DNA from: an uncultured Alphaproteobacteria bacterium
GTDB lineage: Bacteria > Pseudomonadota > Alphaproteobacteria > HIMB59 > GCA-002718135
NCBI GenBank assembly: GCA_902586695.1
Contig: CACIIL010000009.1
Location: forward strand, 1-45,728
Direction of reading: 5' to 3'
DNA: 45,728 bases
Below the pieces are notes generated by a model, which did no database searches, had not been told where the DNA came from, and worked only from the letters and a program-made list of their open reading frames with translations. The position numbers and the translations under genes were made by a program. The stretch's first letter is position 1. The number at the start of each line of letters is the position of its first letter. This document shows positions 9,006-26,967 of the stretch, piece after piece.

Positions 9006-9994
9006 GTAAAAATATTGTATCAGTGAACAATCTTTCGGTATCTTTTGATTACCAAGAAAATTTCCTATCAAAGAAGCAAAAAATAAAAGCCGTTAATAAT
9101 ATTAACATAAAGATCAAAAAAGGATCTTTCTTTGGTCTTGTTGGTGAGTCTGGATCTGGAAAAACCACACTTGGAAGAGCAATATTAGGTGCAAATAAAA
9201 TAAGTACAGGAAATGTAATTTTTCATGATGATGACAGAGATTATGATTTAACATCCATTAATTCAAAGGAAATGAAAGAATATAGAAAAAAAGCACAGCT
9301 AATTTTTCAAGACCCATATGCTGCACTTAGTCCCAGAATGACTGTAAGAGATATAATTGCAGAACCTTTAGAGGTTATGAAGATTACAAATTCACGTGAA
9401 GAAACTGATGAAAAAGTAAGAGAAATTGCTTCAAAATGTCGATTAAATTTAGAGCATTTAAGAAGATACCCACATGCATTTTCAGGAGGGCAAAGACAAC
9501 GTATTTCTATTGCAAGAGCCCTTGTGAGTAATCCAAAATTTATTGTAGCTGATGAAAGTGTTGCTGCGTTAGATGTCTCAATTCAAGCAGATATATTAAA
9601 TCTTTTAAAGCAACTTCAAAATGAATTAAATTTAACATATTTATTTATAAGCCATGATCTAAGTGTTGTAGCTCACGTCTGTGATATTGTGGCGGTAATG
9701 TATCTTGGTCATATAGTCGAGATGGCTCCTTCGAGAGATCTATTTAGTAATCCGAGACATCCTTATACAAAAGCATTATTATCTTCCATTCCATCAATTG
9801 ATCCTGAAAATAAATCAAAAGCTATTGAGCTTGAAGGAGAGATACCTAGTGCAATGAACCCTCCTTCTGGATGTGTTTTTAGAACAAGATGCCCTCATGC
9901 TTCACAAGATGGTAAGGAAGAAAATATTGAAATGGGATTAGAAGAAGTTGAGCCGGATCATTGGGTAGATCGATGTGGCGTTAGTTGTGGGTGA
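8990..9994 (+). CDS. Oligopeptide-type ABC transporter ATP-binding protein (DppF/OppF type)
   Basis: GESGSGKTTLGRA, FSGGQRQRISIARAL, FIVADESVAALD, C-terminal GCVFRTRCPHAS; overlaps dppD-like gene. Confidence 0.95.
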   Translation: MWKKMSKNIVSVNNLSVSFDYQENFLSKKQKIKAVNNINIKIKKGSFFGLVGESGSGKTTLGRAILGANKISTGNVIFHDDDRDYDLTSINSKEMKEYRKKAQLIFQDPYAALSPRMTVRDIIAEPLEVMKITNSREETDEKVREIASKCRLNLEHLRRYPHAFSGGQRQRISIARALVSNPKFIVADESVAALDVSIQADILNLLKQLQNELNLTYLFISHDLSVVAHVCDIVAVMYLGHIVEMAPSRDLFSNPRHPYTKALLSSIPSIDPENKSKAIELEGEIPSAMNPPSGCVFRTRCPHASQDGKEENIEMGLEEVEPDHWVDRCGVSCG

Positions 9995-10890
9995 AAAGTA
10001 ATTTATTTATAGCGGTCGCACTTTCCTTATCTGGATTATTTTTATTAGACTGTATGGGTATTGCGATAAAATACCTCAGAGATGATTATCCAGCAGCACA
10101 ATTATCAGTTTTTAGAAACTTGTTTGGAATGATACCATGTTTTATTGCATTGTATTTTTCACAAGACTGGCATGCTAGTGGAAAAAAATTAGTAATAAAA
10201 AGATGGCGTTTTGGATTAGCAAGAGGTCTAATTATGTCGTTTGCACAACTATGTTTGTATACCTCTTATCTTTATTTACCCTACGCGTTGGTTGCAACAA
10301 TGGAGTACACAGGACCAATGATGATTACATTATTAGCAATACCACTACTTGGTGAAAAATTTGGCTGGTATAAAACATTAGCTGTATTAACAGGTTTTGT
10401 AGGTATAATATTTATTATGCAACCTTGGTCTGAAAGCTTTAATTTTTATATGTTACTTCCTGTAATGGCTGCTTTTGGTTATTCTCTTGCAAGAATAACA
10501 GCTTTAAATTTTTCAAATGATACCCCTGTGCCATTAATAAATCTTTACGCCAATATAGGCACTTTAATATGCGCAATACTTTTAGTTATTACATTTAATA
10601 TGTGGGAAAATTTCAAAAGTTTATATGATTTACTTATATTGTTTTTAATGGGTTTTACGGGTGGTTCAGGTGTTTTATTATTAATTTATGGTTCCAGAAA
10701 AGCAGAACTTAGTAAAATTATGCCCTTTGATTATATTGAGATATTTTTTGCTTTAATTTTGGGTTGGATTTTCTTTAAAGAGTGGCCAGTAGATCAATTA
10801 TTTCCAGGCGCTTTATTTATAGTTGCTGGAGGAATAATTATATATCTACGTCAAAAGAATTTATCAGAAACAAGAGATAGAAAAGTATAA
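9985..10890 (+). CDS. EamA/DMT-family transporter
   Basis: About 10 TM segments in two EamA repeats; start TTG 9985 or GTG 9991; overlaps dppF-like gene; stop overlaps next start (TAATG). Confidence 0.85.
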   Translation: MWVKSNLFIAVALSLSGLFLLDCMGIAIKYLRDDYPAAQLSVFRNLFGMIPCFIALYFSQDWHASGKKLVIKRWRFGLARGLIMSFAQLCLYTSYLYLPYALVATMEYTGPMMITLLAIPLLGEKFGWYKTLAVLTGFVGIIFIMQPWSESFNFYMLLPVMAAFGYSLARITALNFSNDTPVPLINLYANIGTLICAILLVITFNMWENFKSLYDLLILFLMGFTGGSGVLLLIYGSRKAELSKIMPFDYIEIFFALILGWIFFKEWPVDQLFPGALFIVAGGIIIYLRQKNLSETRDRKV

Positions 10891-11939
10891 TGAAAGTTAA
10901 AGTAGAAAAAATAGATAACCCATCTCAACTAAATATAGAGTCGGTTGAAGTTCATAACGAGAATAATTATAGTTTTAAATTCTATACCTATGGTGGTTAC
11001 ATTCATGAAGTTAATATCCCTATAAATCTGCAAGAAGATAAAACTGAAGATGTTTTACTAGGCTATGGCGATATTGATGGAGTATTAGCATCTAATGGTT
11101 ATTTTAATTCTATTGTTGGAAGAGTTGCAAACAGAATAGGATCTTCAAAGTTTATTATAGATAATAATGAATATCAGCTTTATTCGAATGTTAATCCTAA
11201 TCATTTACATGGTGGAAAAGTTGGGTTTAATAAAAAAATATGGAAGATAGAAAATATTGATGAAACAAAAAATTCTATCAAATGTGTAATGAAATATTTG
11301 TCACCACATATGGAAGAAAATTATCCCGGTAATCTTGATTGTACTGTTTCTTACGAATTAAATAATAATAATGAGCTCTTAATAGATTTTGAAGCAACCT
11401 CTGATGAAGATACGATTGTAAATATGACTAATCATAATTATTGGAATTTTCATGGACACGGAGATAACTACCAAAATAATGAAAATCATGTTGTGCTAAT
11501 TAATTCAAAATCAATCTGTGAAACAGATGAACAATCTATTCCTACTGGTAAAATTTTAAATGTTAAAGGATCAAGATTTGATTTGCAAAAAGATTTTTTA
11601 ATTAATAAAGATTTTTTAAAATCTGGAGGTATTGATCATAATTATGTTTTAGATGATCGGTCAATGAAAGAAACTGTTGCTAAAATTTATAGTAAAAAAA
11701 CTGGTCTAGGAGTGGAGTATTTTACAAACCAACATGGTATTCAGTTTTATACAGGCAATATGATGTTGGCTAAATATGTCGGTAAGCAAAATAAGTCTTA
11801 TGGCCTTCAACATGGAATGTGTTTAGAACCACAATATTATCCAGATGCTATTAATCATCCTAATTTTCCTTCCCCAATACTAAGAAAAAATAAAAATTAT
11901 TTATCCAAAATAAAAATTAAATTACGAAATGATTTTTAA
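10890..11939 (+). CDS. Aldose 1-epimerase (mutarotase) family protein
   Basis: NSIVGRVANRIGSSKFIIDNNEYQL, HLHGGKVGFNKKIW, NMTNHNYWNFHG, GIDHNYVLDD, CLEPQYYPDAINHPNFPSPIL. Confidence 0.92.
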   Translation: MKVKVEKIDNPSQLNIESVEVHNENNYSFKFYTYGGYIHEVNIPINLQEDKTEDVLLGYGDIDGVLASNGYFNSIVGRVANRIGSSKFIIDNNEYQLYSNVNPNHLHGGKVGFNKKIWKIENIDETKNSIKCVMKYLSPHMEENYPGNLDCTVSYELNNNNELLIDFEATSDEDTIVNMTNHNYWNFHGHGDNYQNNENHVVLINSKSICETDEQSIPTGKILNVKGSRFDLQKDFLINKDFLKSGGIDHNYVLDDRSMKETVAKIYSKKTGLGVEYFTNQHGIQFYTGNMMLAKYVGKQNKSYGLQHGMCLEPQYYPDAINHPNFPSPILRKNKNYLSKIKIKLRNDF

Positions 11940-11987
11940 AAAATAAATTCTTGTTTTATTGTTTCTATACATTAATAATCATAGCTA

Positions 11988-12485
11988 ATGAAAATCAGCC
12001 AAAAAATAATTAATAATTTAAAATCAGGTGGGGCAGATTTTTTTTTAAGTGTCCCATGTAAACTTTTGGCAAATATGATTACAATATTAGAGAATGATAA
12101 AGATATTTATTATTCAGCAATACCAAGAGAAGAAGAGGGTATGGGTATTTGTGCTGGTGCATATTTAGGTAACAAGCTTCCTTGTATAATGATGCAAAAT
12201 ACGGGTATTGGTAATTCAGTTAACTCAATTGTTTCTCTTCTTCAATTATATCAAATGCCTGTTGTTTTTTTAATAAGCTATAGAGGAACACCTGGTGAAC
12301 CTGTAGGTGCACAAGGTGGTATGGCTAGTGTTACTGAAGATATTCTAAATACTCTTCGTATACCAATGCTACAGTGTAATACAGAGAAGGATCTTGATAA
12401 AATTTCTACTTTTACAAATCATGCTAAAGTCATTGAAAGTCCAGTTGCTATATTGTGTAATTTTAATTTAATGAAAGAAGATTAA
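11988..12485 (+). CDS. comD: Sulfopyruvate decarboxylase, alpha subunit (ComD-like ThDP enzyme)
   Basis: FFLSVPCKLLANMI, AIPREEEGMGICAGAYLGNKLPCIMMQNTGIGNSVNSI; short stand-alone subunit followed by the beta subunit. Confidence 0.82.
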   Translation: MKISQKIINNLKSGGADFFLSVPCKLLANMITILENDKDIYYSAIPREEEGMGICAGAYLGNKLPCIMMQNTGIGNSVNSIVSLLQLYQMPVVFLISYRGTPGEPVGAQGGMASVTEDILNTLRIPMLQCNTEKDLDKISTFTNHAKVIESPVAILCNFNLMKED

Positions 12486-12487
12486 AG

Positions 12488-13057
12488 ATGAATAGATTTG
12501 AATTACTTAATCTTTTGCAAAATACTATACAAGATGAGCTTGTTATTTGTAATATTGGTCTTCCATCTCAAGAATTATACAAAATTAATGATCGCCCTAA
12601 TTATTTTTATATGTTGGGAAGTATGGGTTTAGCGTCATCAATAGGTTTAGGCCTTTCATTAGCTGTAGATAAAAAAATAATTAGTATTGACGGTGATGGC
12701 TCAGTTTTAATGAATATGAATACACTTGCAACAATTGGTAATAGGGCACCAGCGAATTATACTCTTTTGATAATAGATAACGGCTCTTACGGATCTACAG
12801 GAGATCAAAAAACATTTACGAATGAACGCACATCATTAAAAGATGTTGCTATTGGATCTGGTTGTCAAAATGTAATTGAATGCTCAGGAGAAGAAACAAA
12901 TGAAAATTTACAGAAAGCGCTAGTAGATACAAATAATTCTTATGTTATTATTTCAAAAATAAAGTCAGGGAATGTGCCAATAAAACCAATTCCTCTTAAT
13001 GCTGTTACAATAAGAGATCGATTTAGAAAAGAAATAGGTTTAGTTAATTACCTTTAA
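12488..13057 (+). CDS. comE: Sulfopyruvate decarboxylase, beta subunit (ComE-like, ThDP-binding)
   Basis: MLGSMGLASSIGLGLSLAVDKKIISIDGDGSVLMNMNTLATI, IDNGSYGSTGDQKT (GDG...N ThDP motif). Confidence 0.82.
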   Translation: MNRFELLNLLQNTIQDELVICNIGLPSQELYKINDRPNYFYMLGSMGLASSIGLGLSLAVDKKIISIDGDGSVLMNMNTLATIGNRAPANYTLLIIDNGSYGSTGDQKTFTNERTSLKDVAIGSGCQNVIECSGEETNENLQKALVDTNNSYVIISKIKSGNVPIKPIPLNAVTIRDRFRKEIGLVNYL

Positions 13058-13074
13058 TATTTTTATAAGACACT

Positions 13075-13980
13075 ATGATTTATTCTGTTGGTTCAATCTT
13101 TCTTGATCATATTATTAAAATTGATAATTTTCCTAAAAAACCTGTTAAAGTTATTGCTCAAGGAATAGAAAAAAGACTTGGTGGGTCAGCAGCGGTAGCT
13201 AGTTTTACTATAAAAAAGCTTGGATTAAATACATCTTTTATTGGCAGGTTAGGCGATGATGATGCTTCTAAATATTTAAAAAGTGAGTTACGTAAATTTA
13301 ATATTGAACATAAAGATGTTATTTTTATTAAAGGTGCTCAATCATCACAAAGTTATGTTTATGAAGATAAGAATGGTGAAAGACTACTCGCAGCTTTTAG
13401 TGAAAAAAAATTATTAAATAATAAAAAATTACCCAAAATTGAATTTACAAAAAATACAACCTTTATTACTGATTTAAGATGGGTTGAAGCAACTCATTAT
13501 ATTGCGAAGAATTGTCAAAAAAAGAAGCTAAACCAAATTGTTGATTTGGATAATTATAAATTAAACACCAAAGTAAAACAAATTATCAATCTGTCTTCAC
13601 ATCCTATTTTTTCTGAGACAGGATCATTTGAATATACAAAAATCAAATCAATCATAGGTTCATTAAAAAAAATGTATTCAATTAAAAATAAATTTTATGC
13701 AATAACCGCTGGTAATAAAGGTGTTTATTGGATTGAAAATGGTATAGTATTTAATTGCAAACCTCCAAAAATAAAAGTTGTGGAAACAAATTGTGCAGGA
13801 GATGTTTTCCATGGAGCATTTACAGCTTTTATTCATCAAAAATATTCTATGATTGACTCTATGAAATTTGCTACTGCCACAGCTTCATTAAAATGCACTA
13901 AAAATGGAGGTATCTATTCCATACCTACTTTCTCATCTGTTAAAAATTTTGCAAAAAAAATTCAATTAAGGAAATTATAG
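13075..13980 (+). CDS. PfkB-family sugar kinase, YihV-like (candidate 6-deoxy-6-sulfofructose kinase)
   Basis: RLGGSAAVASFTIKKLG, FIGRLGDDD, AQSSQSYVYEDKNGER, TDLRW, PIFSETG, NCAGDVFHGAF, ASLKCTKNGGIYSIP; several of these resemble E. coli YihV as recalled. Confidence 0.82.
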   Translation: MIYSVGSIFLDHIIKIDNFPKKPVKVIAQGIEKRLGGSAAVASFTIKKLGLNTSFIGRLGDDDASKYLKSELRKFNIEHKDVIFIKGAQSSQSYVYEDKNGERLLAAFSEKKLLNNKKLPKIEFTKNTTFITDLRWVEATHYIAKNCQKKKLNQIVDLDNYKLNTKVKQIINLSSHPIFSETGSFEYTKIKSIIGSLKKMYSIKNKFYAITAGNKGVYWIENGIVFNCKPPKIKVVETNCAGDVFHGAFTAFIHQKYSMIDSMKFATATASLKCTKNGGIYSIPTFSSVKNFAKKIQLRKL

Positions 13981-13984
13981 TTAT

Positions 13985-14908
13985 ATGAAAATATTAATAA
14001 CTGAATTTATGGAAGCTAAAAGTGTAGAATTTCTTCAAGCTAATTTTGATGTCATAGTTGATGAAGATTTATCAACAGATACTAATGAATTAAAAAAAAT
14101 AATTAACAACTTTGATGCTTTAATTGTGAGAAATAAAACACAAGTTAATAGAGAAGTTCTAGAAAATGCTACTAATCTAAAATTTGTTGGCCGTTTAGGG
14201 GTTGGTCTTGACAATATTGATATTGAGTTTTGTAAAACTAATAATATTCATGTTCAGCCAGCAACAGGTATGAATGCAAATTCAGTTGCTGAATATGTGA
14301 TTAATACATCTCTTTCCTTATTAAAAAATATTCCCTTAATACACCAAGAGACTTCGATAGGTAATTGGCCACGAACATCAATTTCTTCAAGAGAGATTAG
14401 AGGTAAAACGATTGGTTTATTGGGTTTTGGGTTAATTGCAAAAAAAGTATCTAACTTAGCTAAAGTATTCAATGCTCAAATAATTGCATACGATCCATAT
14501 GTTGATCCAAGTGTTGGTAATGAATTTGATACCAAATTACTTGATATGAATGAGATATTTAAATTGTCAGATGTAATTTCAATTCATCTACCTCTTACTG
14601 ACAAAACTAAAAACCTATTAAATTATGAGGCTTTTAAGAAAATGTTAAAAAAACCAATTATTATTAATTCTTCTAGAGGCTCTATAATTAATGAAGAAGA
14701 TTTACTAAAAGCTTACGATGAAAAACTAATATCCGGATTTGCTCTGGACGTCTATGATAGAGAACCTGTACAAAAATCTTTTTTAGAAAGAATACAAAGT
14801 AATACAAATTGTATACTTACACCTCATGTAGCTGGGGTAACTGAAGAGTCAAATGCGAGAGTAAGTGAGTTTATAGCAAAAGCTGTAAAAGAGTTTTTTA
14901 AATTATAA
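13985..14908 (+). CDS. D-isomer-specific 2-hydroxyacid dehydrogenase (SerA/SlcC-like; candidate sulfolactate dehydrogenase)
   Basis: NLKFVGRLGVGLDNIDIEFCK, GKTIGLLGFGLIAKKVSNLA, NSSRGSIINEEDLL, GFALDVYDREP, LTPHVAGVTEES. Confidence 0.85.
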   Translation: MKILITEFMEAKSVEFLQANFDVIVDEDLSTDTNELKKIINNFDALIVRNKTQVNREVLENATNLKFVGRLGVGLDNIDIEFCKTNNIHVQPATGMNANSVAEYVINTSLSLLKNIPLIHQETSIGNWPRTSISSREIRGKTIGLLGFGLIAKKVSNLAKVFNAQIIAYDPYVDPSVGNEFDTKLLDMNEIFKLSDVISIHLPLTDKTKNLLNYEAFKKMLKKPIIINSSRGSIINEEDLLKAYDEKLISGFALDVYDREPVQKSFLERIQSNTNCILTPHVAGVTEESNARVSEFIAKAVKEFFKL

Positions 14909-15991
14909 ATTAAACTCTTTCATAAATACAACTCTATTTTCTACTATAGAATTTTCAGCCGCCTCACCAATTGCAACTGACATTAAACCATCTCTTAAAG
15001 ATACCTCTGGTTTTTTATTTTTTTGAATAGCATTTATAAAAGCTAAATGCTCAAAGTAAGTGGAACCATGATGATGTCCTGCGGCTAAAATATCTTTATC
15101 TACTTTAACTTCTTTTGACTTATTAACATTGTCTTTTCTCAAACCAATTCTAACTTCTGAAGAGTCCTTGCCTGAAGCATTTGATGGAACAAATGTTTCT
15201 ATTTTTCCTATATCTCCTATAGCCACTATTTCTTCTTGATATTCTGAATTTTCTGCAAACATACATAAATCAAGCATCCCTCGAACACCATTTTCAAAAT
15301 CTACAATTACATATGCGTTATCTATAATATCCGGAGTTTTGCCATCATATTTTTCTTCTAGATGATTAACATCCTGACTTCCACTGGCATAAACTTTTAT
15401 TGGCTCACTTTGAATAACAAGTCTCATTAGGTCAAAGAAGTGACAACATTTTTCAACTAATGTGCCTCCAGTGTTAATAATAAATCTATTCCAATCATCA
15501 ACTTTATTTAAAAAAGGAAATCTATGTTCACGAATAGAGAGCATTTTTATTTTACCAATTACATGGTTATGAACTTCATTAATTAATTGTGTTACAGGAG
15601 GCATATATCTGTATTCCATTCCAGTCCAAATTATCTTTGAATAGTCTTTTGAAAGTAGCTCAAATTTTTTACAATCTTCAGTGGTTGTGCATAAAGGTTT
15701 TTCTATCAACAAATGTTTATTTGTTTTTAAAATTTGTTCTAAAACATTGATATGTGTAAAATTGGGTGTAGCAATAATATAGGCATCTGCAATATTTTTA
15801 CTTATTAATTCATTTAAATCATTATAAAATTTTGTAGACTCCCGAACTAATGATTTTGCTTGGTTTCTTGAGCTCTCATTAGTATCACAAACTGCAACTA
15901 CTTCTGCATTTTCAATTAGATTTATATTCTGAATATGTTCTTGGCCCATAACACCAGTTCCAATTATTCCATATTTTATAGTTTCACTCAT
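14903..15991 (-). CDS. Gfo/Idh/MocA-family NAD(P)-dependent protein (oxidoreductase or NAD-dependent glycosidase)
   Basis: YGIIGTGVMGQEHIQNI, IIATPNFTHINV, LLIEKPLCTT, GMEYRYMPPV, EHRFPFLNKVDDWNRFIINTGGTLVEKCCHFFDLMR. Confidence 0.88.
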   Translation of the reverse strand: MSETIKYGIIGTGVMGQEHIQNINLIENAEVVAVCDTNESSRNQAKSLVRESTKFYNDLNELISKNIADAYIIATPNFTHINVLEQILKTNKHLLIEKPLCTTTEDCKKFELLSKDYSKIIWTGMEYRYMPPVTQLINEVHNHVIGKIKMLSIREHRFPFLNKVDDWNRFIINTGGTLVEKCCHFFDLMRLVIQSEPIKVYASGSQDVNHLEEKYDGKTPDIIDNAYVIVDFENGVRGMLDLCMFAENSEYQEEIVAIGDIGKIETFVPSNASGKDSSEVRIGLRKDNVNKSKEVKVDKDILAAGHHHGSTYFEHLAFINAIQKNKKPEVSLRDGLMSVAIGEAAENSIVENRVVFMKEFNL

Positions 15992-17367
15992 ATTGTATAA
16001 GTTGGTATCTTTAATTTTTTTCCTAAAAGTTTAACATCTTCAATTACATCTCCATAAGTAAAGCTCACATGATGCTCTAATCCACTTAAAAATAAGTTTT
16101 TAATTTTTTTAAAAGTATTTTTACCTAAATTTATTACTCCAGAAGTTCCAGAAAAAGAATTTTTTCTTCTGAGTACTTTTCCCTTCATTAAAATAAACTT
16201 TAATTTATTTTCTGATTTTGAAACTCGAAAGATTGTAATTTCTCCAGCCCTAAATGCAAAATTGTGAAGAAGTGGTTTTTTTCTATTTGAGTGAACAGTA
16301 GCACTAGGTGTATTTGTTTCAGCCATACTTAGGGGGGCAAGACCGCAATGCCAGAAAACTGTAGTATTATCTTTTTCATCAACATCTACAATATCTACTA
16401 ATAAAGCAGGTTTCTTATTTAATTGATTTAATATGTTACAACTTAAGCTTCCAAGTACATCAGCTTCACATGCAGCACTTATTTTATTTTCATTCATCAT
16501 AGCCATTGGTCCGCATGAAGCACATCCATACTCAGTAAACATTTCTGGCCAACAACGTACTGCAAAAGCATCAATATTTTGTTTTTGTTGAATTTGTTCA
16601 AGGCCATGGAACAAAGATATGCTTTTGTTTAATTCTTTTTGATTTAACATATGTAAATTTTTAAGGTTAGAACTGATATTTTTTTTAGTTACATTAATTA
16701 TTTTTTTATCAACCCTTCTAGAAATGTTAAATAATTTATACAAATTTATCTTTTCTATTTTTGCATTAAATTTTGTTTTTAATTCTTTAGTATTAAAATC
16801 ACATGTATGAAAACCTTCTGGTCTTTCACCAATCAGACCTAATTTAGGTTGTTTAAATTCAATTATTTTCTTATTATTTTTTTTTGAATTTGTTATTTTT
16901 TTTAAAAAATTTCTTTTCGTAAAATTATTATTACTTTTTATAAATTTTAATATTTCTTTTGAAAAAGATGACTCATCATTAGAGTAAATTATAAAATTAG
17001 AATAAAATTTATTTTTGATTAAGGCATGCAATCCTAAATTGACACCACAAAGAGAATTTAATCTCAATCGTCCACCTGTTCTTTTCTCTTTAAATGACAC
17101 AAATAAAATTGGTTTTTTAAATTTTGCAACAAAAGAAGAAATAAATTTTGCATCAGTAAAGGTAGATTGAATAACAATAAATTTATTATATTTACGATTT
17201 TCAAAATATTTTAGTGCGTTTCTCCCAACTTCGTCATTTGTTATTAAATCTTCAAAAAAAATAATGTTCTTACTTAATTTTTTTATTGATTTTTTTGTTT
17301 TTGCTATTTTTTTTATAGCCAATTCAATATCAAAAGTATCTCTAGCTAAACTTAGGCACCCAATCAT
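15988..17367 (-). CDS. L-fucose/L-arabinose-isomerase-fold sugar isomerase (SqvD-like candidate)
   Basis: AVRCWPEMFTEYGCASCGPMAMMNENKISAACEADVLGSLSC; VFWHCGLAPLSMA; RAGEITIFRV. Confidence 0.75.
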   Translation of the reverse strand: MIGCLSLARDTFDIELAIKKIAKTKKSIKKLSKNIIFFEDLITNDEVGRNALKYFENRKYNKFIVIQSTFTDAKFISSFVAKFKKPILFVSFKEKRTGGRLRLNSLCGVNLGLHALIKNKFYSNFIIYSNDESSFSKEILKFIKSNNNFTKRNFLKKITNSKKNNKKIIEFKQPKLGLIGERPEGFHTCDFNTKELKTKFNAKIEKINLYKLFNISRRVDKKIINVTKKNISSNLKNLHMLNQKELNKSISLFHGLEQIQQKQNIDAFAVRCWPEMFTEYGCASCGPMAMMNENKISAACEADVLGSLSCNILNQLNKKPALLVDIVDVDEKDNTTVFWHCGLAPLSMAETNTPSATVHSNRKKPLLHNFAFRAGEITIFRVSKSENKLKFILMKGKVLRRKNSFSGTSGVINLGKNTFKKIKNLFLSGLEHHVSFTYGDVIEDVKLLGKKLKIPTYTI

Positions 17368-18431
17368 TAAAAACCTTTATAAGTATTTTTAAAGTTTATG
17401 GAATTTTTTTGGATCAATTTATTTTTTAAATAATTTTCTAAAGATTGGGCATTATTATTTGTAAGTGCATTCAATTTTTTTACATAATTTGCACTTTCTT
17501 TATTAAGATTTTTTTTAATTTTTTGGTAATTTGGATAGTCTTTAAATGCATCAAGCCAAATAGTTCTACCAGCAAGATATCCAGAAGCACCATTTTTATA
17601 AGCTAATTTTAAACAATTAAAAAAAGATTTCTTACTCATTCCAGAGGATAGCATTACCCATGGAATATTTTTTGTTGCTTTAGATAGTTGCTTAAAAGCA
17701 TTTTCTGTAACTTTAGTAAATTTACTATTCTCTAAATACTTACTATCTACAGGACTCTCTAATTTAAATATATCAACTTTGTATTTTGCTTTAGAAAATT
17801 CTTTAACACTACCTATAATATGATTTTGATTTTTATCTAGCTGCTCTTTGTAATCTTTTGAATAACCAATTTCATTTTTGAAAGGATAAACTAATAGCTC
17901 AAGTAAAAAAGGAATATCATATTTTTCACATTGCTTGCCAATAGTTTCAATATATTTTTTTTGGTGATTAATTGATTTTTGATCAGCATCAGGTCGATAC
18001 CATGCTAGTACTTTTACTGCATCACCACCTATTTTTTTTATTTTTTCAACTGTCCAATTTTTAATATTTCTTGAATATCTCCCTTCCCCTTTTTCCGTAA
18101 ATGCATGATCTTCTAATGTGATGATTAAACCACTGCATTTGCTTGTAGTAATAAGGTTGGGTATTGAATAAACTGGATCCATCAATACGGCTGTAGAGTA
18201 TTGTGAAAGGCTTAATGAAATTTGTTTTTTAAAATCAACAACATCCTTAAATTTATATTTCTTTTTTTTACTTTTTATTAAATTAAAGATAGGGGGCCTT
18301 TGATCAATTGCTAGCATTTGCAAATGATGATTGTCATTACATAATTTTTTGATATGAATGTATTTGCCAGTTGTTAGAGATTTCATATTTTTGTTTAAAT
18401 TGTTTCTATATATTTGGCTGGTTTTGAACAT
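17367..18431 (-). CDS. LacD/YihT-family class I aldolase (candidate 6-deoxy-6-sulfofructose-1-phosphate aldolase)
   Basis: LQMLAIDQRPPIFNL, STAVLMDPVYSIPN, LIITLEDHAFTEKGEGRYSRNIKNWTVEKIKKIGGDAVKVLAWYRPDAD, PFLLELLVYPF, PWVMLSSGMSKKSF. Confidence 0.75.
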   Translation of the reverse strand: MFKTSQIYRNNLNKNMKSLTTGKYIHIKKLCNDNHHLQMLAIDQRPPIFNLIKSKKKKYKFKDVVDFKKQISLSLSQYSTAVLMDPVYSIPNLITTSKCSGLIITLEDHAFTEKGEGRYSRNIKNWTVEKIKKIGGDAVKVLAWYRPDADQKSINHQKKYIETIGKQCEKYDIPFLLELLVYPFKNEIGYSKDYKEQLDKNQNHIIGSVKEFSKAKYKVDIFKLESPVDSKYLENSKFTKVTENAFKQLSKATKNIPWVMLSSGMSKKSFFNCLKLAYKNGASGYLAGRTIWLDAFKDYPNYQKIKKNLNKESANYVKKLNALTNNNAQSLENYLKNKLIQKNSINFKNTYKGF

Positions 18432-18615: not shown

Positions 18616-19872
18616 ATGATTAAATCTATTTTAAAATTTTTTTCAGTAACTTTCATTTCTATTTCATTCACAATAATTTCAACAGTTGCTTCTGCTGAAA
18701 TTACAATTAACTGGCCATCAATTTGGGTTGGAAAAGACTCTAAGACAACAGTTATTCGTGAACTAGTAGATGAATTTAATGCTGCAAATGCAGGTGCAAT
18801 CAAAGTTGTAATAGAAGAACAAACTGATTATGACATCTATGCACAAAAATTAACTGCTCAAATATCTACAGGTGATCTACCTGATGTATTTACAGTTGGT
18901 GCTGACTTGTTAGATATTTTACATAGAAGTGGCAAAGCAATGGATCTTGCTCCTCATGTAGGCTCTGACTCACATTGGAACAATGTTTATCCGGAAAATG
19001 CTCTTCAATCTAATATGATGGAAGGACAATTAACTGCATTACCATATGAACTTTTTGTAACACCAGTAACTTATAATAAAAAATTATTAAAAGCTGCTGG
19101 CTATGATGAGTTTCCTACAACATATGATGAGTTCTTCAAAATGTGTGAAGCTGTAACTGCAACTGGTAAAGTTTGCACATCTCAAATGACAGGTAAAAAC
19201 GCATGGACCTCAATGCTTTGGTTTTCTCAAGCCGTAGCATCAGCTGGTGGACCTAATGTTTATGAAAGAGGTCTAGATGATCCAGCTTGGGCTCAAGCTT
19301 TTGAAGTTATGGAAAAAATGTATATGTATACAACAAGCGATGCTATTGGTGCAGATGCAGGTGTTTCAGGTGGACATTTCTTAAATGAAAGAACTGCAGT
19401 CTTCATGAATGGACCATGGTTTATTGCACGTTATACTTCAGACGGTATACCTGGATTACACGCAAACATAGGTGTAGCTCCAGCTCCAATGCTAACTGGT
19501 GGTAAAGGTGCTCCAGGCGGGTATGTAGGTGGAAGACAATCATCATTAGCAGCTGGTAAGCAATCTGATCCTGCAAAAGAAGAGGCAGTTGTTAAATTCT
19601 TAAAATGGCTTACTACTCCTGAAAATGTTGCAAGACTATCTTATAGTTCTGGTGCAATGTTTATTGTAAAGGCTGATTTGCCTGCTGATATGGATAGACT
19701 ATTCATTGAAATGAATGAGCAAAAAGGAAATGCTCCTTACGTAGCTCCAACATTTTTGAATGGAATAGCTTCTTTACCAATAGCGAAAGAATTTCCTCAA
19801 GCATTATCTGCTTTAGCTATAGGTGATGTAACACCAGAAGGTGCAGTTGAAATGCTTAAAGACGCTGAATAA
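18616..19872 (+). CDS. Sugar ABC transporter substrate-binding protein, family 1
   Basis: Signal peptide; TAQISTGDLPDVFTVGADLLD, PYELFVTPVTYNKKLLKAAGYDEFPTTYDEF, NERTAVFMNGPWF; RBS GGAGGA. Confidence 0.92.
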   Translation: MIKSILKFFSVTFISISFTIISTVASAEITINWPSIWVGKDSKTTVIRELVDEFNAANAGAIKVVIEEQTDYDIYAQKLTAQISTGDLPDVFTVGADLLDILHRSGKAMDLAPHVGSDSHWNNVYPENALQSNMMEGQLTALPYELFVTPVTYNKKLLKAAGYDEFPTTYDEFFKMCEAVTATGKVCTSQMTGKNAWTSMLWFSQAVASAGGPNVYERGLDDPAWAQAFEVMEKMYMYTTSDAIGADAGVSGGHFLNERTAVFMNGPWFIARYTSDGIPGLHANIGVAPAPMLTGGKGAPGGYVGGRQSSLAAGKQSDPAKEEAVVKFLKWLTTPENVARLSYSSGAMFIVKADLPADMDRLFIEMNEQKGNAPYVAPTFLNGIASLPIAKEFPQALSALAIGDVTPEGAVEMLKDAE

Positions 19873-19882
19873 AATCTAAAAC

Positions 19883-19920
19883 AACTATGAGGTATTTTTA
19901 TACCTCATAGTTTATTTTTT
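19883..19920 (+). terminator. Perfect hairpin plus T-tract between sugar-binding-protein and permease genes
   Basis: AACTATGAGGTAT-TTTT-ATACCTCATAGTT (13-bp stem, 19883-19912) followed by TATTTTTTT; 11 nt after the stop codon. Confidence 0.85.
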
Positions 19921-19922
19921 TT

Positions 19923-20795
19923 ATGAAACTCAGAAAAGATGAAGTCGTTTGGCTATTGATATTTATAGCTCCAGCGATATGTCTTTTTTTTCTCTTTTTT
20001 ATTTTACCTATTCTTTTTCTTTTTGTTACTAGCTTTACTAACTGGGATGGTATTGGTGCAGAATTCGTTGGTTTAGAAAATTATTCTAAATTGTTAAATA
20101 AAAAATCTTTTATAAGAGCAATTACTAATAATTTATATTGGTGTGTTACAGCAGCATTAATAACTGTTCCATTAGCTCTTATAGTAGCATTACTTTTAGC
20201 TCATCGGTCTAGAGGCTGGAAGGTATTTAGAACAGTTCTTTTTATTCCTCAGGTTGTATCATCAGCTGCAATAGCAATGCTTTGGGCAGCAATGTTTAAT
20301 GCTGAATATGGTTTAGTAAATTTTCTGTTAGAGATTATCGGATTCTCAGATTTTGAGAAATATAATTGGCTGGGTAACGTTCGAACAGCTAATGCGGCAT
20401 TAATTGGTTTTTCTTTGTGTTATGTTGGTTATTTTATGGTTATTATGTTGGCAAAAACAGCTGGTATTTCTGATGATTATTACGATGCGGCAAACATAGA
20501 TGGAGCAACACAATTTCAAAAGGATGTTTATATCACCGCCCCATTAATCAAAAGTACATTTTTTCTTTGTATAATTTTAGCAGTAATATTTAATTTAAGG
20601 CAGTTTGAATATGTGTACCTAATGACTGCCGGTGGTCCAGCTAATAAAACACAAGTCCTAGTTGTTTATATTTGGAATGAATTATCTGTGCAAAGACTTG
20701 GACGTGGTAATGCTGCAGGTGTGATAATGATATGTATAGGTGCCGCACTTTTATTGATACTTCGTAAATTATTAAAAAGTGAGACTTATAATTAA
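19923..20795 (+). CDS. Sugar ABC transporter permease (MalF/UgpA type)
   Basis: Multiple TM segments, LFVTSFTNWDG, YYDAANIDGATQFQKDVYITAPLIKS. Confidence 0.92.
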   Translation: MKLRKDEVVWLLIFIAPAICLFFLFFILPILFLFVTSFTNWDGIGAEFVGLENYSKLLNKKSFIRAITNNLYWCVTAALITVPLALIVALLLAHRSRGWKVFRTVLFIPQVVSSAAIAMLWAAMFNAEYGLVNFLLEIIGFSDFEKYNWLGNVRTANAALIGFSLCYVGYFMVIMLAKTAGISDDYYDAANIDGATQFQKDVYITAPLIKSTFFLCIILAVIFNLRQFEYVYLMTAGGPANKTQVLVVYIWNELSVQRLGRGNAAGVIMICIGAALLLILRKLLKSETYN

Positions 20796-20796
20796 T

Positions 20797-21633
20797 ATGA
20801 AAAGAGATTTATCCATAAACTTTTATTCTATTTTTAAATGGGTAATTCTTATATCGTTTGTATTGTATGCAGTATTCCCTTTTCTTTGGCTAATTCTAGC
20901 TTCATTAAAAACAAATGCTGAACTACTTGATGATCCATTTGCACTTCCAGAAGTTTTTCAATTTAAAAATTATGCTGACGCAATGGAGGCAGCCGGATTG
21001 GGTCAATTAATAATTAATTCTTTAGTGATAAGTACTAGTGCAACTTTTTTAAATATATTATTTTCTTCAATGTGCGCATTTGCAATAGCACGTCATACTT
21101 TTTGGGGAAAAAATGTATTATTTTTAATGATTACAGCAGGCATTTTAGTTCCTCTAAATGCATTAATCATACCTTATTTTGCAATTATTAATTTTTTAAA
21201 TCTTTATGATACAAGACTAGGATTAATTTTAGTTTATTGTGCTGTTGGACTTCCTGTTTCTACTTTTATTTTAACAGAGTTTTTTAAATCTATACCAAAA
21301 GAAATAGAAGAAGCATCATTTCTAGATGGTTGTAATTTCGTCTCTCGCTATTTTAAAATTATGCTTCCATTAGCTATACCTGGTCTAGCTACTGCAGGAA
21401 CCTTTCAATTTATTTTATGTTGGAATGAATTCATTTATGCAATGTTATTAACATCCTCAACTGAAATAAGAACAATTCAATTTGGTATAAGTTATTTTAC
21501 TAATCAATTTTTCTCAGATTATGTAGGAATGTTTGCAGCTGTTGTAATTAGTATACTTCCAAGTATTACCGTATTTATCCTTTTTCAAGAAAGAGTTATA
21601 ACTGGGTTAACTGCTGGATCAGTAAAGGGGTAG
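20797..21633 (+). CDS. Sugar ABC transporter permease (MalG/UgpE type)
   Basis: FPFLWLILASLKTNAEL, EIEEASFLDGCNFVSRYFKIMLPLAIPGL; ATG 20797 preferred over the ORF-track start at 20779. Confidence 0.92.
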   Translation: MKRDLSINFYSIFKWVILISFVLYAVFPFLWLILASLKTNAELLDDPFALPEVFQFKNYADAMEAAGLGQLIINSLVISTSATFLNILFSSMCAFAIARHTFWGKNVLFLMITAGILVPLNALIIPYFAIINFLNLYDTRLGLILVYCAVGLPVSTFILTEFFKSIPKEIEEASFLDGCNFVSRYFKIMLPLAIPGLATAGTFQFILCWNEFIYAMLLTSSTEIRTIQFGISYFTNQFFSDYVGMFAAVVISILPSITVFILFQERVITGLTAGSVKG

Positions 21634-21643
21634 AGCATCTAAA

Positions 21644-22918
21644 TTGATAAGCCCTAACATCATAAAAATTATATGTCATGATATTGGAAAACATCTTGGT
21701 TGTTATGGCGTAAAATCAGTTAGTACTAGTACAATTGATAGTCTTGCAAAAGAAGGTATTTTATTTAATAATGCTTTTGCAACAAGCCCAGGATGCAGTC
21801 CTAGTAGAGCTGCAATTGCTACTGGTAGATATCCTCATAATACAGGTGTACTAGGTTTAGCCCACGCTCATTTTGGATGGGAATTAAATAAAACTATACC
21901 TCACATTGCAAAATACTTATCTAACAAGGGTTATAGGACTATGCTCTTTGGCCTTCAACACCTAACATACCATGAAAAGTCACTTGGTTTTGATAGCATA
22001 TTTCCAGAAAGACCAGCAGACGATGTTGTAAAAAATATAAGAAAAAAAATAAATGAAAAATTATCAAATAAATCTTTTTATGCAGAAATAAATTTTTTTG
22101 AACCACACCGACCTTTTGACTTTGGAGGAGTTAAACCATTCAAATCCAAAGGTGTCTTTATTCCTAAATATATTCCAACAAATCAACATAGCAAAATAGA
22201 GTTTGCTGCAATGCAAGGTGCAATTAAAAAAATGGATGAATCAATTTTAAAGATAATAAAAATTTTAAAGAAAAAAAATCTATATGAAAATACAGTAATA
22301 ATTTTTACAACTGATCACGGTATACCATTTCCAAGGGCAAAAGGCACTTTATATGACTCTGGAATTGAGACAAGTTTAATATTGCACTATCCAAAACTCA
22401 AATTAAAGAATAAAAAAATTAACGAACTGATTTCTAACATTGATATTTTACCTACACTTTTAGATCTAGCAAAAGTTAAAAAATCAAAAAAAATACAGGG
22501 TAAAAGTTTTTACAAGCTTTTATACAACAAAAAATACATTGAAAATAAATATATTTTTGCAGAAAAAACTTATCATGAAGGTTTCGACCCTATACGCTGT
22601 GTTAGGAATAAAGATTATAAATTGATTATAAATTTTGATTCAGACAGAACAATAAGAGTGCCATCTGATATTATGAATGGCGGTACTTACCAAAGTATGA
22701 TTGGTAAATTGATAAATGTGAGAGAACGATATGAGTTATACAATATCAAGAAAGATAAATATGAAAGAAAAAATTTAGCTAACAATAAAAAGTATAAAAA
22801 AGTAAGGCAAAAACTAATCAAAGAAATTATGTTATGGATGAAATCGACAAAAGATCCTCTATTATTTAAACAAATAAAATCACCTTTTTTTCTTGATACT
22901 ATCAAAGAACTAAAATAA
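21644..22918 (+). CDS. Sulfatase, Cys-type (formylglycine motif CSPSR)
   Basis: FATSPGCSPSRAAIATGRYPHNTG (C-x-P-S-R), FTTDHGIPFPRAKGT, SNIDILPTLLDLA; probable TTG start. Confidence 0.9.
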   Translation: MISPNIIKIICHDIGKHLGCYGVKSVSTSTIDSLAKEGILFNNAFATSPGCSPSRAAIATGRYPHNTGVLGLAHAHFGWELNKTIPHIAKYLSNKGYRTMLFGLQHLTYHEKSLGFDSIFPERPADDVVKNIRKKINEKLSNKSFYAEINFFEPHRPFDFGGVKPFKSKGVFIPKYIPTNQHSKIEFAAMQGAIKKMDESILKIIKILKKKNLYENTVIIFTTDHGIPFPRAKGTLYDSGIETSLILHYPKLKLKNKKINELISNIDILPTLLDLAKVKKSKKIQGKSFYKLLYNKKYIENKYIFAEKTYHEGFDPIRCVRNKDYKLIINFDSDRTIRVPSDIMNGGTYQSMIGKLINVRERYELYNIKKDKYERKNLANNKKYKKVRQKLIKEIMLWMKSTKDPLLFKQIKSPFFLDTIKELK

Positions 22919-22930
22919 CATTTTAGATAC

Positions 22931-23620
22931 ATGACAGAAGTTAAAAATAAAAAAATATATATTAAGTCATCAGAGTTTATTTATAGAGTTGAGCATTTGA
23001 CTTTAGAGGGAACTTGTTCAACAGATCATGGTCCGAAGAATGTTAAAATTAAAAATTTATACGTAGACAAATATCCAGTAACAAATAAAGAATATTTAAA
23101 TTTTGTAAAAAAAACAGGTTATCAACCTAGAGACACACAACGATTTTTAGCCCATAAACCTAAAAATAATCAATCAAATTATCCCGTTGTTTGCATTTCT
23201 CAAAATGATGCAATGCAGTATGCTAAATGGGTTGGTGGAAGGCTTCCAACTGATGAGGAGTGGCAGTATATTGCTTCAGGGCCAGATTATTCAGACTGGC
23301 CATGGGGTGATAAGTTTGATCCATCGCTCTGTAATCATGATCATAATTCATTAAAACCAGTTAATTCAAATAAACAAGGATCAAGTTGGTGCGGGTGTGA
23401 GGATATGAGTGGCAATGCTTGGGAATGGACATCTGGAGTTTATGATGATGGAGAACATCGATTCGCTCTTTTGCGAGGAGGTAGTTTTTATTATGCACAT
23501 GATCATTGGCATGTGGGGGGAGGAGCTAGAAAAACAAATTTCCATTGGAAACTGCAGATATTAAACGAGGGAATGAATAGAGCTTCAACTTTAGGTTTTC
23601 GTTGTGTGTATGATGCATAA
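22931..23620 (+). CDS. SUMF1/FGE-domain protein lacking the canonical catalytic cysteines
   Basis: YVDKYPVTNKEYLNFVKKTGY, GGRLPTDEEWQYIA, EDMSGNAWEWTSG, LLRGGSFYYAHDHWHVGGGARK, STLGFRC; no Cys in the RGGSF..AR segment. Confidence 0.85.
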   Translation: MTEVKNKKIYIKSSEFIYRVEHLTLEGTCSTDHGPKNVKIKNLYVDKYPVTNKEYLNFVKKTGYQPRDTQRFLAHKPKNNQSNYPVVCISQNDAMQYAKWVGGRLPTDEEWQYIASGPDYSDWPWGDKFDPSLCNHDHNSLKPVNSNKQGSSWCGCEDMSGNAWEWTSGVYDDGEHRFALLRGGSFYYAHDHWHVGGGARKTNFHWKLQILNEGMNRASTLGFRCVYDA

Positions 23621-25436
23621 AATTAAAAATGTGAAGAATAAAATAATCAACTTTTCATCAAAAGATTTATTTTTATCTATTGATTATTCAAAAAAAGTTA
23701 ATTTAGATAAATTAATTGATTTGAATTCAAATTATAATTTTTTAGATAAAAAGAGTAATGATCTTTTAAAAATAAAAATAGAAAATGAAATTATACCGGA
23801 TCGTTTTTTAAAAATTGAAAAAGTTTCAGAAAAAACACATAATAAATTAAAATTTATCTCTTTAGCCTTTTCCCAATCTTTTAAAAAAGATTTTTTTAAA
23901 GGAAGAATTTCAATAATTCAAAAAAAAGAAAATGTTATTGATGTAATTTTTCAATTAGCTGGAAAATGGAAGAATAATGTACCAAAAAAAACTTCACTTA
24001 TTTTTCCTTTTTTGCGCAATCTAAATAATCATAAAAATTTTTTAAAACCCGGTCATGTATTTAACGGTAAAAAAACTCTGAAAAAGAGCGCTTGGAATTT
24101 TCATGAATATCCGCCAGCAATTTTAACAGATAAATCTAAAAACTTTGCTATTGGCATAGAATTTTATGACCAATTTCCATGGCAGGCAAATTATAATCTT
24201 AGTATGCATGAAGCTATCTCAAAAGAAGGTTTTGAAAAATATGAAACTGAAGTTCAATTAACCAAAAACTTATCCGATGTTATTGTAATGAGGTTGTACA
24301 CAAGTTCAGAAGGAAAAAATAAAGTTTTTAATCTTTGGAAAGAAAATACAAGAAGCAGATATGATTTACGAAAATATTTTAAACCAAAAAATACGTGGAT
24401 TAAAAAAAATTATATTACACATTTTACATTTGCTTATGGAAAAGAGTCTTTTAATTATGAAAAAATAAAATTTAATATTAAGAAAATTATAAAAGAAGGA
24501 AAAGAATTCGGGGGATACGACTCATTAATTTTTTGGCATCAGTATCCAAGATTAGGTCTGGATAACTCTAATCAATGGAATCTATATAAATATTTACCTG
24601 AAGAATATAAATCGATTAAAAATATTGTTAGAGAATGTCATAATCATGGAGTTAAATTTTTTATTCCATTTAAGCCTTGGGATGTAAGATCAAATGAAAG
24701 CTTAGATTACCATGCGAAATCTTTAGAAAATTTTATATCTAAAACAAATATCGATGGTTTTTTTCTTGATACCATGTCTTCCTTGCCTGAATCCTTTCTT
24801 AGAATACAAAAGAAATTTCCATCTTTTGAATTTGCTTCTGAAGGAACCCCAAGAGAGCAAAGACAAATTGAACAGTTAACAAGTTCTTGGGATCAAATTG
24901 GAGATATTAGGAGAAATTATAAGGTGGAGGTTGAAGCAAATATGTTTCGATTTGTGTTTCCTGAACACCCTTTAAACTTAGTCTCTAGATGGAGCGTAGG
25001 GTCTGATAAAGATTCAATAATTAAAAGAGCTGCATTTAATGGTACTGGATTAGTAATTTGGCAAGATGTTTTTGGATGCTGGTTGCCTTTTAGTAAAAAA
25101 CAAAAACAATTAATCAAAAAAATAAAAAATATTCTTGATAAGTTTCATGCTATTATTTTTGGATCTAATTCAGTCCCATTAATTGAAACATTATCAAATG
25201 GTTTAATCTGTAATCAATTTTGTAATAATAGTAATCAAAAGATATTTGCAATTTATAATTTTACAAATAAAAATATTAAAGGCCCACTCTTTGCTGTAGA
25301 ACCTAAAACTAAAATTAAATTAAAACAAATTTATGGAATAAATACCTCATTGCAAATCAAGAAAAGAAAAGAAATTCTTGCTGTATTTGGAACTGTTTAT
25401 GCTAACGAAGTAGCACTAATTCATGTTAAGTATTAA
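23604..25436 (+). CDS. Putative TIM-barrel glycoside hydrolase-like protein
   Basis: 610 aa, no signal peptide; beta-sandwich-like N-terminus then barrel-like motifs GGYDSLIFWHQYPRLG, ECHNHGVKFFIPFKPWD, NIDGFFLDTMSSLP, FEFASEGTP; start GTG 23604 or ATG 23610. Confidence 0.55.
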   Translation: MCMMHKIKNVKNKIINFSSKDLFLSIDYSKKVNLDKLIDLNSNYNFLDKKSNDLLKIKIENEIIPDRFLKIEKVSEKTHNKLKFISLAFSQSFKKDFFKGRISIIQKKENVIDVIFQLAGKWKNNVPKKTSLIFPFLRNLNNHKNFLKPGHVFNGKKTLKKSAWNFHEYPPAILTDKSKNFAIGIEFYDQFPWQANYNLSMHEAISKEGFEKYETEVQLTKNLSDVIVMRLYTSSEGKNKVFNLWKENTRSRYDLRKYFKPKNTWIKKNYITHFTFAYGKESFNYEKIKFNIKKIIKEGKEFGGYDSLIFWHQYPRLGLDNSNQWNLYKYLPEEYKSIKNIVRECHNHGVKFFIPFKPWDVRSNESLDYHAKSLENFISKTNIDGFFLDTMSSLPESFLRIQKKFPSFEFASEGTPREQRQIEQLTSSWDQIGDIRRNYKVEVEANMFRFVFPEHPLNLVSRWSVGSDKDSIIKRAAFNGTGLVIWQDVFGCWLPFSKKQKQLIKKIKNILDKFHAIIFGSNSVPLIETLSNGLICNQFCNNSNQKIFAIYNFTNKNIKGPLFAVEPKTKIKLKQIYGINTSLQIKKRKEILAVFGTVYANEVALIHVKY

Positions 25437-26967
25437 AATAATTATATAACAATTCTTTAGGAGGATCATTCTCTTTAATTAGATTAATCATTTTCTCTTT
25501 ATATTTATTAATAAGATTTTGATCTTGTATTGGACTTAATTGTCCTGGATCCTCAAGAATATTATAGAGAGCACTTTTTGTATCCTCTAATATTTTAAAT
25601 CCCTCATCTGTCTTTCTTTGAATTCTATTAATTTTCATAACAGGTATTTTTTTTGAAAATGTAAAAGGTTCATGAATTTCAATAGTTCTTAGTTCTTCAT
25701 GAGAAAAAAACTGCCTCATATGAGTTGGCATTAAAGTGTATTGATATTTATCCAGACTAATTTGATCAAAATTATCAGGGTAATGGAAATAGGTATAATT
25801 TCCATCTGTTATATTTATTCCACCTCCCCAATAACCATAAAGAGCTGAATACAGATCGGAGTCTTTATCTAAAATATCTAAAAGAGATTTTCCTTTCACT
25901 TCTTTGGGTATGGTTAAATTATTTATAGATAGAAATGTAGGCATTAAGTCAATATTTTGTGTCACTGTATTTCGAGTTTCTCCATCATATTGTTTATATT
26001 CAGGATGATGAATAAATAGGGGTATGTGTGCTATTTCATTATACATAGGCATTCTATTTTTTGCCCACCAGTCATGTTCTCCAAGCATAAAACCATGATC
26101 AGTTGTGAGAATTAAAGCAGTGTTATCCCATAAATTATGTTCATCAAAGTAATCCAAAATAGTTCCTAACAAATAATCACATAAGCCTACCAAGGCTAAA
26201 TAATTAGCTTTAAGTTCTGCTACTTCATCGTCTGCTTCTTTTACTTTATCATACTGTGGCCAATCTAATCTTGGGCCGCGATAGTTTGTTTTAAATTTTT
26301 CTCTAAATCTTTTTGGGGCAAAAAAAGGTTCATGAGGATCAAAGGTTTCTAATTGTAAAAACCATTCATCAGCATTCTTATTTGTTTGAAGAAAATCAAG
26401 GGCAGAATTAAAACATTTGACAGAAGGGAAGTCTTTTTCTTCTTTTATAAATTCACTATTTACAGCATAACGATAATAACCAGATTCTCTATTTTTTAAA
26501 TCTAATTGTGATTTATGAAATTTTTCTCTAAATTTTTCTAATGGAGGTTGAACCATAGCTTTCCATGGATCACTTTCTTGTCCTCTTATAAAATTCCAAG
26601 AATTAAAACGGTTATGATAAGTTGCACCTCCATCTTCAAAATAATGATAATGGTCAGTAATTAAGTGTGAATAAACTTTACTTTTTCTTAATATTTCTGG
26701 AAAAGAATTATCAAATGGCTCCAGAGGACCCCAACTTCTATGCAAAAAGCTAAGTCTTCCTGAATGCATATCTCTTCTTGCTGGCATGCAAGGCATACTC
26801 CCAACATAATGATTATTAAACTGAATTGATTTTTCAGCTAAGCGGTTAAAGTTTGGTGTTTCAAGATATTTGCCACCATAAGAATTTAACATTCTTAAAT
26901 TTAAAGAATCAAATAAAAGAAATAAAGTCTTCAATGCAAATTCTAGTTTGTTTTTGTCATTGTGCAC
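25426..26967 (-). CDS. Sulfatase, Cys-type (formylglycine motif CMPAR)
   Basis: FLLFDSLNLRMLNSYGG, GSMPCMPARRDMHSGRLSFLHR (C-x-P-A-R), LQLETFDPHEPFFAPKRF, ILTTDHGFMLGEHDWWAKNRMPMYNEIAHIPLFIHHP. Confidence 0.92.
   Translation of the reverse strand: MHNDKNKLEFALKTLFLLFDSLNLRMLNSYGGKYLETPNFNRLAEKSIQFNNHYVGSMPCMPARRDMHSGRLSFLHRSWGPLEPFDNSFPEILRKSKVYSHLITDHYHYFEDGGATYHNRFNSWNFIRGQESDPWKAMVQPPLEKFREKFHKSQLDLKNRESGYYRYAVNSEFIKEEKDFPSVKCFNSALDFLQTNKNADEWFLQLETFDPHEPFFAPKRFREKFKTNYRGPRLDWPQYDKVKEADDEVAELKANYLALVGLCDYLLGTILDYFDEHNLWDNTALILTTDHGFMLGEHDWWAKNRMPMYNEIAHIPLFIHHPEYKQYDGETRNTVTQNIDLMPTFLSINNLTIPKEVKGKSLLDILDKDSDLYSALYGYWGGGINITDGNYTYFHYPDNFDQISLDKYQYTLMPTHMRQFFSHEELRTIEIHEPFTFSKKIPVMKINRIQRKTDEGFKILEDTKSALYNILEDPGQLSPIQDQNLINKYKEKMINLIKENDPPKELLYNYFNT

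Follow-up and report, generated by a model that had tools for sequence, protein, structure and literature searches.

Does any single bacterium carry the breakdown of sulfoquinovose (SQ), a sulfur sugar of plants and algae that is produced at ~ten billion tons per year (PMC10755693), past the C3 sulfonates, and with which genes would it do so? The question is raised by an eight-gene block at positions 10890-18431 of contig CACIIL010000009.1 from an uncultured alphaproteobacterium, which we analyzed over its full 45,728 nt and refer to as the window (contig C9 of the source genome). The source assembly (G000, the "own genome" below; other G-numbers denote compared genomes and L-numbers compared loci) comprises 1.12 Mb in 57 contigs and is 75% complete. 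Among named genomes the closest to it are those of marine single cells, AG-457-I08 for example, and the metagenome-assembled genome (MAG) MarineAlpha5_Bin5. Its size, the complete 1.4-Mb genome of the order-mate G037 and the relative AG-337-I02 suggest that it belongs to the HIMB59/AEGEAN-169 group. In the usual picture of SQ breakdown, sulfoglycolytic bacteria excrete C3 sulfonates and other species desulfonate them. Judging from sequence, we put at roughly 0.77 the probability that the block encodes a SQ pathway of the sulfo-Embden-Meyerhof-Parnas (sulfo-EMP) type joined to a branch from sulfolactate to sulfoacetaldehyde, with Xsc, GabD and Pta encoded elsewhere. A preliminary description of the window had proposed that one locus links these two stages, and gene families, linkage and conserved residues support that proposal; the eight open reading frames it listed, with their order and strands, were all recovered.

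Five genes on the plus strand (GalM-ComD-ComE-PfkB-SlcC, spaced by 48, 2, 17 and 4 bp) converge with three on the minus strand (aldolase-isomerase-SqgA). SlcC and SqgA overlap by 6 bp, SqgA and the isomerase by 4 bp, and the isomerase and aldolase by 1 bp; because of these short gaps and overlaps we read the block as two convergent operons. Each reaction of the following scheme is inferred from protein families; substrate uptake, and a part in SQ breakdown for GabD, Xsc and Pta, whose genes are unlinked, are inferred as well. SqgA would free SQ from sulfoquinovosyl glycerol, GalM would interconvert the SQ anomers, the isomerase would turn SQ into sulfofructose, the PfkB kinase would yield sulfofructose-1-phosphate, and the aldolase would cleave this to dihydroxyacetone phosphate (DHAP) and (S)-sulfolactaldehyde (SLA). 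A GabD/SlaB-type dehydrogenase encoded elsewhere would then produce (S)-sulfolactate, SlcC would oxidize it to sulfopyruvate, and ComDE would decarboxylate sulfopyruvate to sulfoacetaldehyde, from which Xsc, also encoded elsewhere, would release sulfite and acetyl-phosphate, the latter being converted to acetyl-CoA by Pta. The chemistry and stereochemistry of this scheme are consistent, in that sulfoglycolysis gives S-SLA, GabD yields S-sulfolactate and SlcC oxidizes S-sulfolactate to sulfopyruvate (PMC11382572, PMC12421959).

The strongest single indicator of SQ as the substrate is the Gfo/Idh/MocA protein (14903..15991, minus strand), which by its sequence is SqgA of family GH188, a predicted NAD+-dependent sulfoquinovosidase. 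A phmmer comparison with the PDB gave 371 bits to 8qc2 and 370 bits to 8qc3, both SqgA, over residues 2-357, followed by 351 bits to 8zn9, named a putative oxidoreductase, and only 100 bits to the next chain, 3ezy. As references we used the sulfonate-binding Arg166, Leu170 and Lys172 and the catalytic Lys107, Tyr136, Glu189, His193 and His321 of ArSqgA (PMC10755693). The motifs EKP at 97, YRYMPP at 127, EHRFPFLNK at 155, EKCCHF at 180 and HHGST at 307 of the window protein align with all of these residues. The preliminary description had placed the protein correctly in its broad family and missed the more specific SqgA identity, which, with its sulfonate-binding residues, pins the sugar as sulfoquinovose. 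It could be argued that the true substrate is another sulfosugar or a non-sulfonated 6-deoxyhexose, with the isomerase and aldolase acting on fucose- or tagatose-type sugars, and the isomerase fold and the LacD-like aldolase described below both lean that way. We regard this as very improbable, given that SqgA retains the sulfonate-binding Arg, Leu and Lys, that FlSqgA showed no activity on glucosides (PMC10755693), and that a YihV-like kinase and sulfopyruvate enzymes lie alongside.

The isomerase (15988..17367, minus strand), a predicted SftI/SqvD-like SQ isomerase, had as its sole NCBIfam match NF048012 (SftI sulfoquinovose isomerase; 303 bits against a curated cut-off of 700, E=3.3e-90), and Fucose_iso_C was also matched. 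Its sequence returned no match in the PDB, so we predicted its structure and compared it by fold. The best Foldseek matches of the model were L-arabinose (E 1.5e-18) and L-fucose isomerases (E 4.8e-12), in agreement with the L-fucose-isomerase fold proposed earlier; with a pLDDT of 78 and poor global superposition, the model supports the fold class only. A search of plasmids with the isomerase found distant relatives only.

For the PfkB-family kinase (13075..13980, plus strand), a predicted sulfofructose kinase, the closest PDB chain was the E. coli sulfofructose kinase YihV (7ag6, 144 bits), compared with 95 bits for the next chain and 23 bits to a tagatose-kinase model, so that it groups, as first described, with YihV and not with tagatose kinases. 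We take the sulfonate-pocket residues of YihV to be Lys27, Asn109 and Arg138. The first and last align with K25 and R135 of the window kinase, which are kept in 71/71 and 63/72 orthologues, respectively; the equivalent of Asn109 is Ala107, and the Asn is not kept.

The third member of the sulfo-EMP trio is a class I aldolase of the LacD/PRK12858 type (DeoC/LacD; 17367..18431, minus strand), which scored 317 bits to NF009498 (cut-off 184), 132 bits to LacD PDB chains and 65 bits to YihT. The LacD half of its earlier designation as LacD/YihT-like therefore stood and the YihT half did not. Since it is nearer LacD/PRK12858 than YihT, its predicted role as sulfofructose-1-phosphate aldolase rests on context. 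The class II aldolase SqiA is set apart by fold family, without direct comparison. A candidate Schiff-base residue, K223, is kept in 36/36 aligned relatives, and the gene adjoins the isomerase in G082, G176 and the clusters of SUP05 bacteria. Isomerase, kinase (by similarity) and aldolase (by context) are thus present together. The own genome has a second locus (contig C10; L052 3997-4959 and 10604-12055) at which a sugar ABC transporter is accompanied by distantly related paralogues of both the aldolase (34%) and the isomerase (25%).

The C3 to C2 branch begins with the SlcC-like 2-hydroxyacid dehydrogenase (13985..14908, plus strand), predicted to convert (S)-sulfolactate to sulfopyruvate. 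Left earlier as SerA/SlcC-like, it fell on the SlcC side of our tree, in a clade (100/99 support) with SlcC of Paracoccus aestuarii, whose gene lies in a suyA-suyB-slcC-comC-type cluster, and apart from SerA. ComD, the predicted sulfopyruvate decarboxylase alpha subunit (11988..12485, plus strand), scored 155.6 bits to TIGR03845, above the cut-off of 147.95, and is 80-99% identical among genus relatives. ComE, the predicted beta subunit with the thiamine diphosphate (ThDP) domain (12488..13057, plus strand), reached 220.0 bits to TIGR03846, 1.5 short of the cut-off of 221.5; its orthologues in the 96%-complete relative G220 (223.8 bits) and in G082 exceed that value, and it is 53-56% identical to annotated Roseobacter comE. 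Phosphonopyruvate decarboxylase models gave 97 bits for ComD and 130 bits for ComE, both far under the cut-off, so that the sulfopyruvate models outscore them for both subunits, as their initial naming as ComD/ComE-like implied.

SUP05/Thioglobus-type gammaproteobacteria (L131, L133, L136, L140, L141, L143 and L144) carry an aldolase-isomerase-SqgA-PfkB-SlcC cluster without comDE. In L131 an FGGY kinase adjoins this cluster, where it might act on the glycerol that SqgA sets free. The window SlcC is 62% identical to the SUP05 SlcC of L131 and 54% to that of the same-genus genome G030, whereas ComDE are 80-84% identical to those of G030, a mismatch for which gene exchange within the block is a possible explanation. 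These clusters, having neither comDE nor an SLA dehydrogenase nearby, also lend something to the suggestion that the SlcC-like protein acts as an SLA reductase or as some other hydroxyacid dehydrogenase, that the SQ branch ends in 2,3-dihydroxypropane-1-sulfonate (DHPS), and that ComDE act on another 2-oxoacid. We give that suggestion very little credence, because the SlcC clade includes suyAB/comC-linked SlcC, ComD passes the cut-off of the sulfopyruvate model, and GabD, SlcC and ComDE occur together in one operon of G082.

As already recognized, the window contains neither an SLA dehydrogenase nor Xsc. A GabD fragment at the edge of contig C43 of the own genome is 82% identical to the full GabD of G220, and the cut-off of the GabD model was exceeded in G220, G020, G022, G019 and G028. 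Xsc (940-957 bits, cut-off 676) was identified in 27/36 same-genus genomes, in eight of them on the same contig as the SQ locus and 41-62 kb from it, as well as in G220, G082 and G176; in G022 and G028 the stretch separating Xsc from the SQ locus encodes a Pta-family protein. Several candidates from the own genome were examined and rejected. The thiamine-dependent enzyme on contig C2 proved to be an acetolactate synthase, and a 564-aa ThDP enzyme on contig C20 (L002 1474-3168) scored 379 bits to the Xsc model against the cut-off of 676; this protein, encoded beside a luciferase-like monooxygenase, resembles both Xsc and acetolactate synthase and is under both cut-offs. None of the full-length aldehyde dehydrogenases was of the GabD type. 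One of them (L009 1483-2922) matched phosphonoacetaldehyde dehydrogenase at 792 bits, above cut-off, and is next to an alkaline-phosphatase-like hydrolase, which suggests that this genome also encodes a route for phosphonates.

What was observed directly comprises the genes, their families, their conserved linkage and, for SqgA and the kinase, the key residues; the linkage extends well beyond the source genome. The isomerase was found in 20/36 same-genus relatives. Among the best 80 named loci, 40, from named marine genomes, have SftI-SqgA-SlcC-PfkB-ComE-ComD-GalM contiguous and in the same order, which makes a chance arrangement unlikely. The GalM-family aldose 1-epimerase (10890..11939, plus strand; PF01263 (Aldose_epim), 240.8 bits), a predicted SQ mutarotase whose substrate is presumably SQ, adjoins the block in these 40 loci and is part of the operon of G082. 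The latter, a complete genome from another alphaproteobacterial family, has a single operon, PfkB-aldolase-SftI-SqgA-GalM-GabD-SlcC-ComD-ComE, whose GabD-type gene fills the gap left in the window at the SLA dehydrogenase step. Operons of this type also occur in an uncultured Rhodobacteraceae MAG (L156), a Marivivens MAG (L158) and a Tropicimonas genome (L181), and without SlcC-ComDE in G176. In L157 the genes after slcC were considered as comDE or suyAB and turned out to encode subunits of a cytochrome oxidase together with an ATPase of the CbbQ type. Across 385 alphaproteobacterial genomes, SqgA was present in 29, ComE (at least 199 bits) in 12 and both in 8, against ~0.9 expected (hypergeometric P 1.6e-7, or 1.2e-5 without the window's genus, with kinship not corrected). 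The co-occurrence in related genomes that the preliminary description had named as a check is thus seen both in the conserved core and in an independent Rhodobacterales operon.

These arrangements also bear on whether the island serves two separate functions, a sulfo-EMP pathway excreting sulfolactate and a SlcC/ComDE branch degrading imported sulfolactate, DHPS or cysteate. Roseobacter ComDE occur in hpsNOP-type clusters for DHPS that contain no SQ genes, SlcC is found in suyAB clusters, the SQ part stands alone in G176 and several Rhizobiales, and the window has no SLA dehydrogenase, all of which would fit such a division. We nevertheless consider it unlikely, since comDE, the kinase gene and slcC follow one another on a single strand at gaps of 2-17 bp, an arrangement kept in 40 genomes, the Rhodobacterales hold all steps including GabD in one operon, and no hpsN-type gene was seen in the window.

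A joined pathway, complete within one genome from SQ glyceride to sulfite and acetyl-phosphate, is our preferred reading. Several observations weigh against it. The search of the rest of the genome proposed earlier for an aldehyde dehydrogenase and Xsc yielded the GabD fragment for the former, and neither Xsc nor Pta was found in the own assembly at its 75% completeness. Same-genus genomes without the SQ locus also carry Xsc, so that SQ is not its sole purpose; taurine may be what Xsc mainly serves, and the unlinked GabD may serve succinate semialdehyde only. The isomerase scores far under its curated cut-off, the aldolase is not YihT-like, and no SQ-specific transporter was recognized at the locus. 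The aldolase, moreover, was not found in most same-genus genomes and is beside the core in only 5/40 core-carrying named loci. In G034 (C42:4664-4741, L072) a 26-residue remnant of its 3' end persists upstream of the isomerase, so the gene seems to have been lost there, with its role, if still filled, taken by another aldolase. Opinion could fall evenly either way on the broadest form of the joined pathway, in which this streamlined open-ocean lineage would fully mineralize algal sulfoquinovosyl glycerol within one cell, to DHAP, acetyl-phosphate and sulfite, with the dedicated aldolase of most members replaced by another, perhaps a housekeeping one.

The surroundings of the block are less constant. 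An EamA/DMT-family transporter (9985..10890, plus strand; PF00892) overlaps GalM by 1 bp and is a conserved neighbour, preceding GalM at almost every locus of the genus, with MarineAlpha5 L104 an exception. On the other side, a carbohydrate ABC transporter with a binding protein (SBP_bac_1) and two permeases (18616..21633, plus strand) is a possible importer. Its binding protein was rejected as a SQ binder, its closest PDB matches being general sugar binders, and the sugar ABC genes next to the isomerase vary among relatives, other genus members having unrelated cassettes there. In the window this cassette (18616-26967) continues with a sulfatase, an FGE-type sulfatase-maturation protein, a 610-aa protein and a second sulfatase; it is common to only some relatives, with unrelated sugar cassettes in its place in others. 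At 1e-3 the 610-aa protein (23604-25436) matched nothing in Pfam or NCBIfam, yet it is 59-99% conserved in relatives. Two arginase/agmatinase-family proteins flank the region (570-1547 and 26943-27881).

If the joined pathway operates as proposed, SQ would be used as a whole molecule within free-living plankton, one cell type doing work usually split between species. The carriers are marine Alphaproteobacteria with very small genomes, many of which were obtained from single cells, and the locus supplies concrete enzymes for testing. Outside subscription papers, which our coverage did not include, we found no report of an SQ sulfo-EMP pathway joined to ComDE-Xsc, and none of SQ catabolism in this plankton lineage in the literature on AEGEAN-169 or marine SQ degraders. 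The closest counterpart of the upper part is the sulfo-EMP pathway of Arthrobacter sp. AK01 (PMC10755693, PMC8873060), which likewise uses SqgA, a sulfofructose kinase, a sulfofructose-1-phosphate aldolase and an SLA dehydrogenase to take SQ glyceride to DHAP and S-sulfolactate. That organism excretes sulfolactate, whereas the window continues with SlcC and ComDE and differs further in its SftI/SqvD-like isomerase and its aldolase of the LacD/PRK12858 kind. The sulfo-transketolase pathway (SqvD, SqwGH; PMC12890257) shares a SqvD-type isomerase and a C2-sulfonate product, but there transketolases of anaerobes make the sulfoacetaldehyde; the window has no transketolase and would reach C2 by decarboxylation. 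The lower part resembles the DHPS pathway of Jannaschia and Ruegeria (HpsNOP, SlcD, ComDE, Xsc; PMC11382572), in which sulfolactate passes through sulfopyruvate to sulfoacetaldehyde by ComDE and on to Xsc, starting from DHPS via R-sulfolactate and SlcD rather than from SQ via S-sulfolactate and SlcC.

The earlier view that the two stages are usually described in different organisms needs qualification, as coupling in one organism has a precedent through SuyAB (PMC12421959, PMC11465081). Paracoccus wurundjeri combines sulfosugar breakdown with C3 desulfonation via S-SLA, S-sulfolactate and SlcC (PMC12421959); it does so with an Entner-Doudoroff upper part acting on sulfofucose and a ComC/SuyAB (sulfolactate sulfolyase) exit, whereas the pathway proposed here has an upper part of the sulfo-EMP type and leaves through ComDE and then Xsc. 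Actinobacterial Tyr-variant GH188 clusters, flagged as a possible new pathway (PMC11465081), similarly contain GH188, a sulfofructose kinase, an aldolase, a fucose-type isomerase and a phosphoglycerate dehydrogenase-like dehydrogenase, but have sulfolactate sulfolyase subunits and Tyr at the 170 position where the window has ComDE and Leu. The coupling of sulfosugar and C3-sulfonate breakdown is therefore already known through SuyAB, and what looks new here is an exit by way of ComDE and Xsc among open-ocean bacteria with streamlined genomes.

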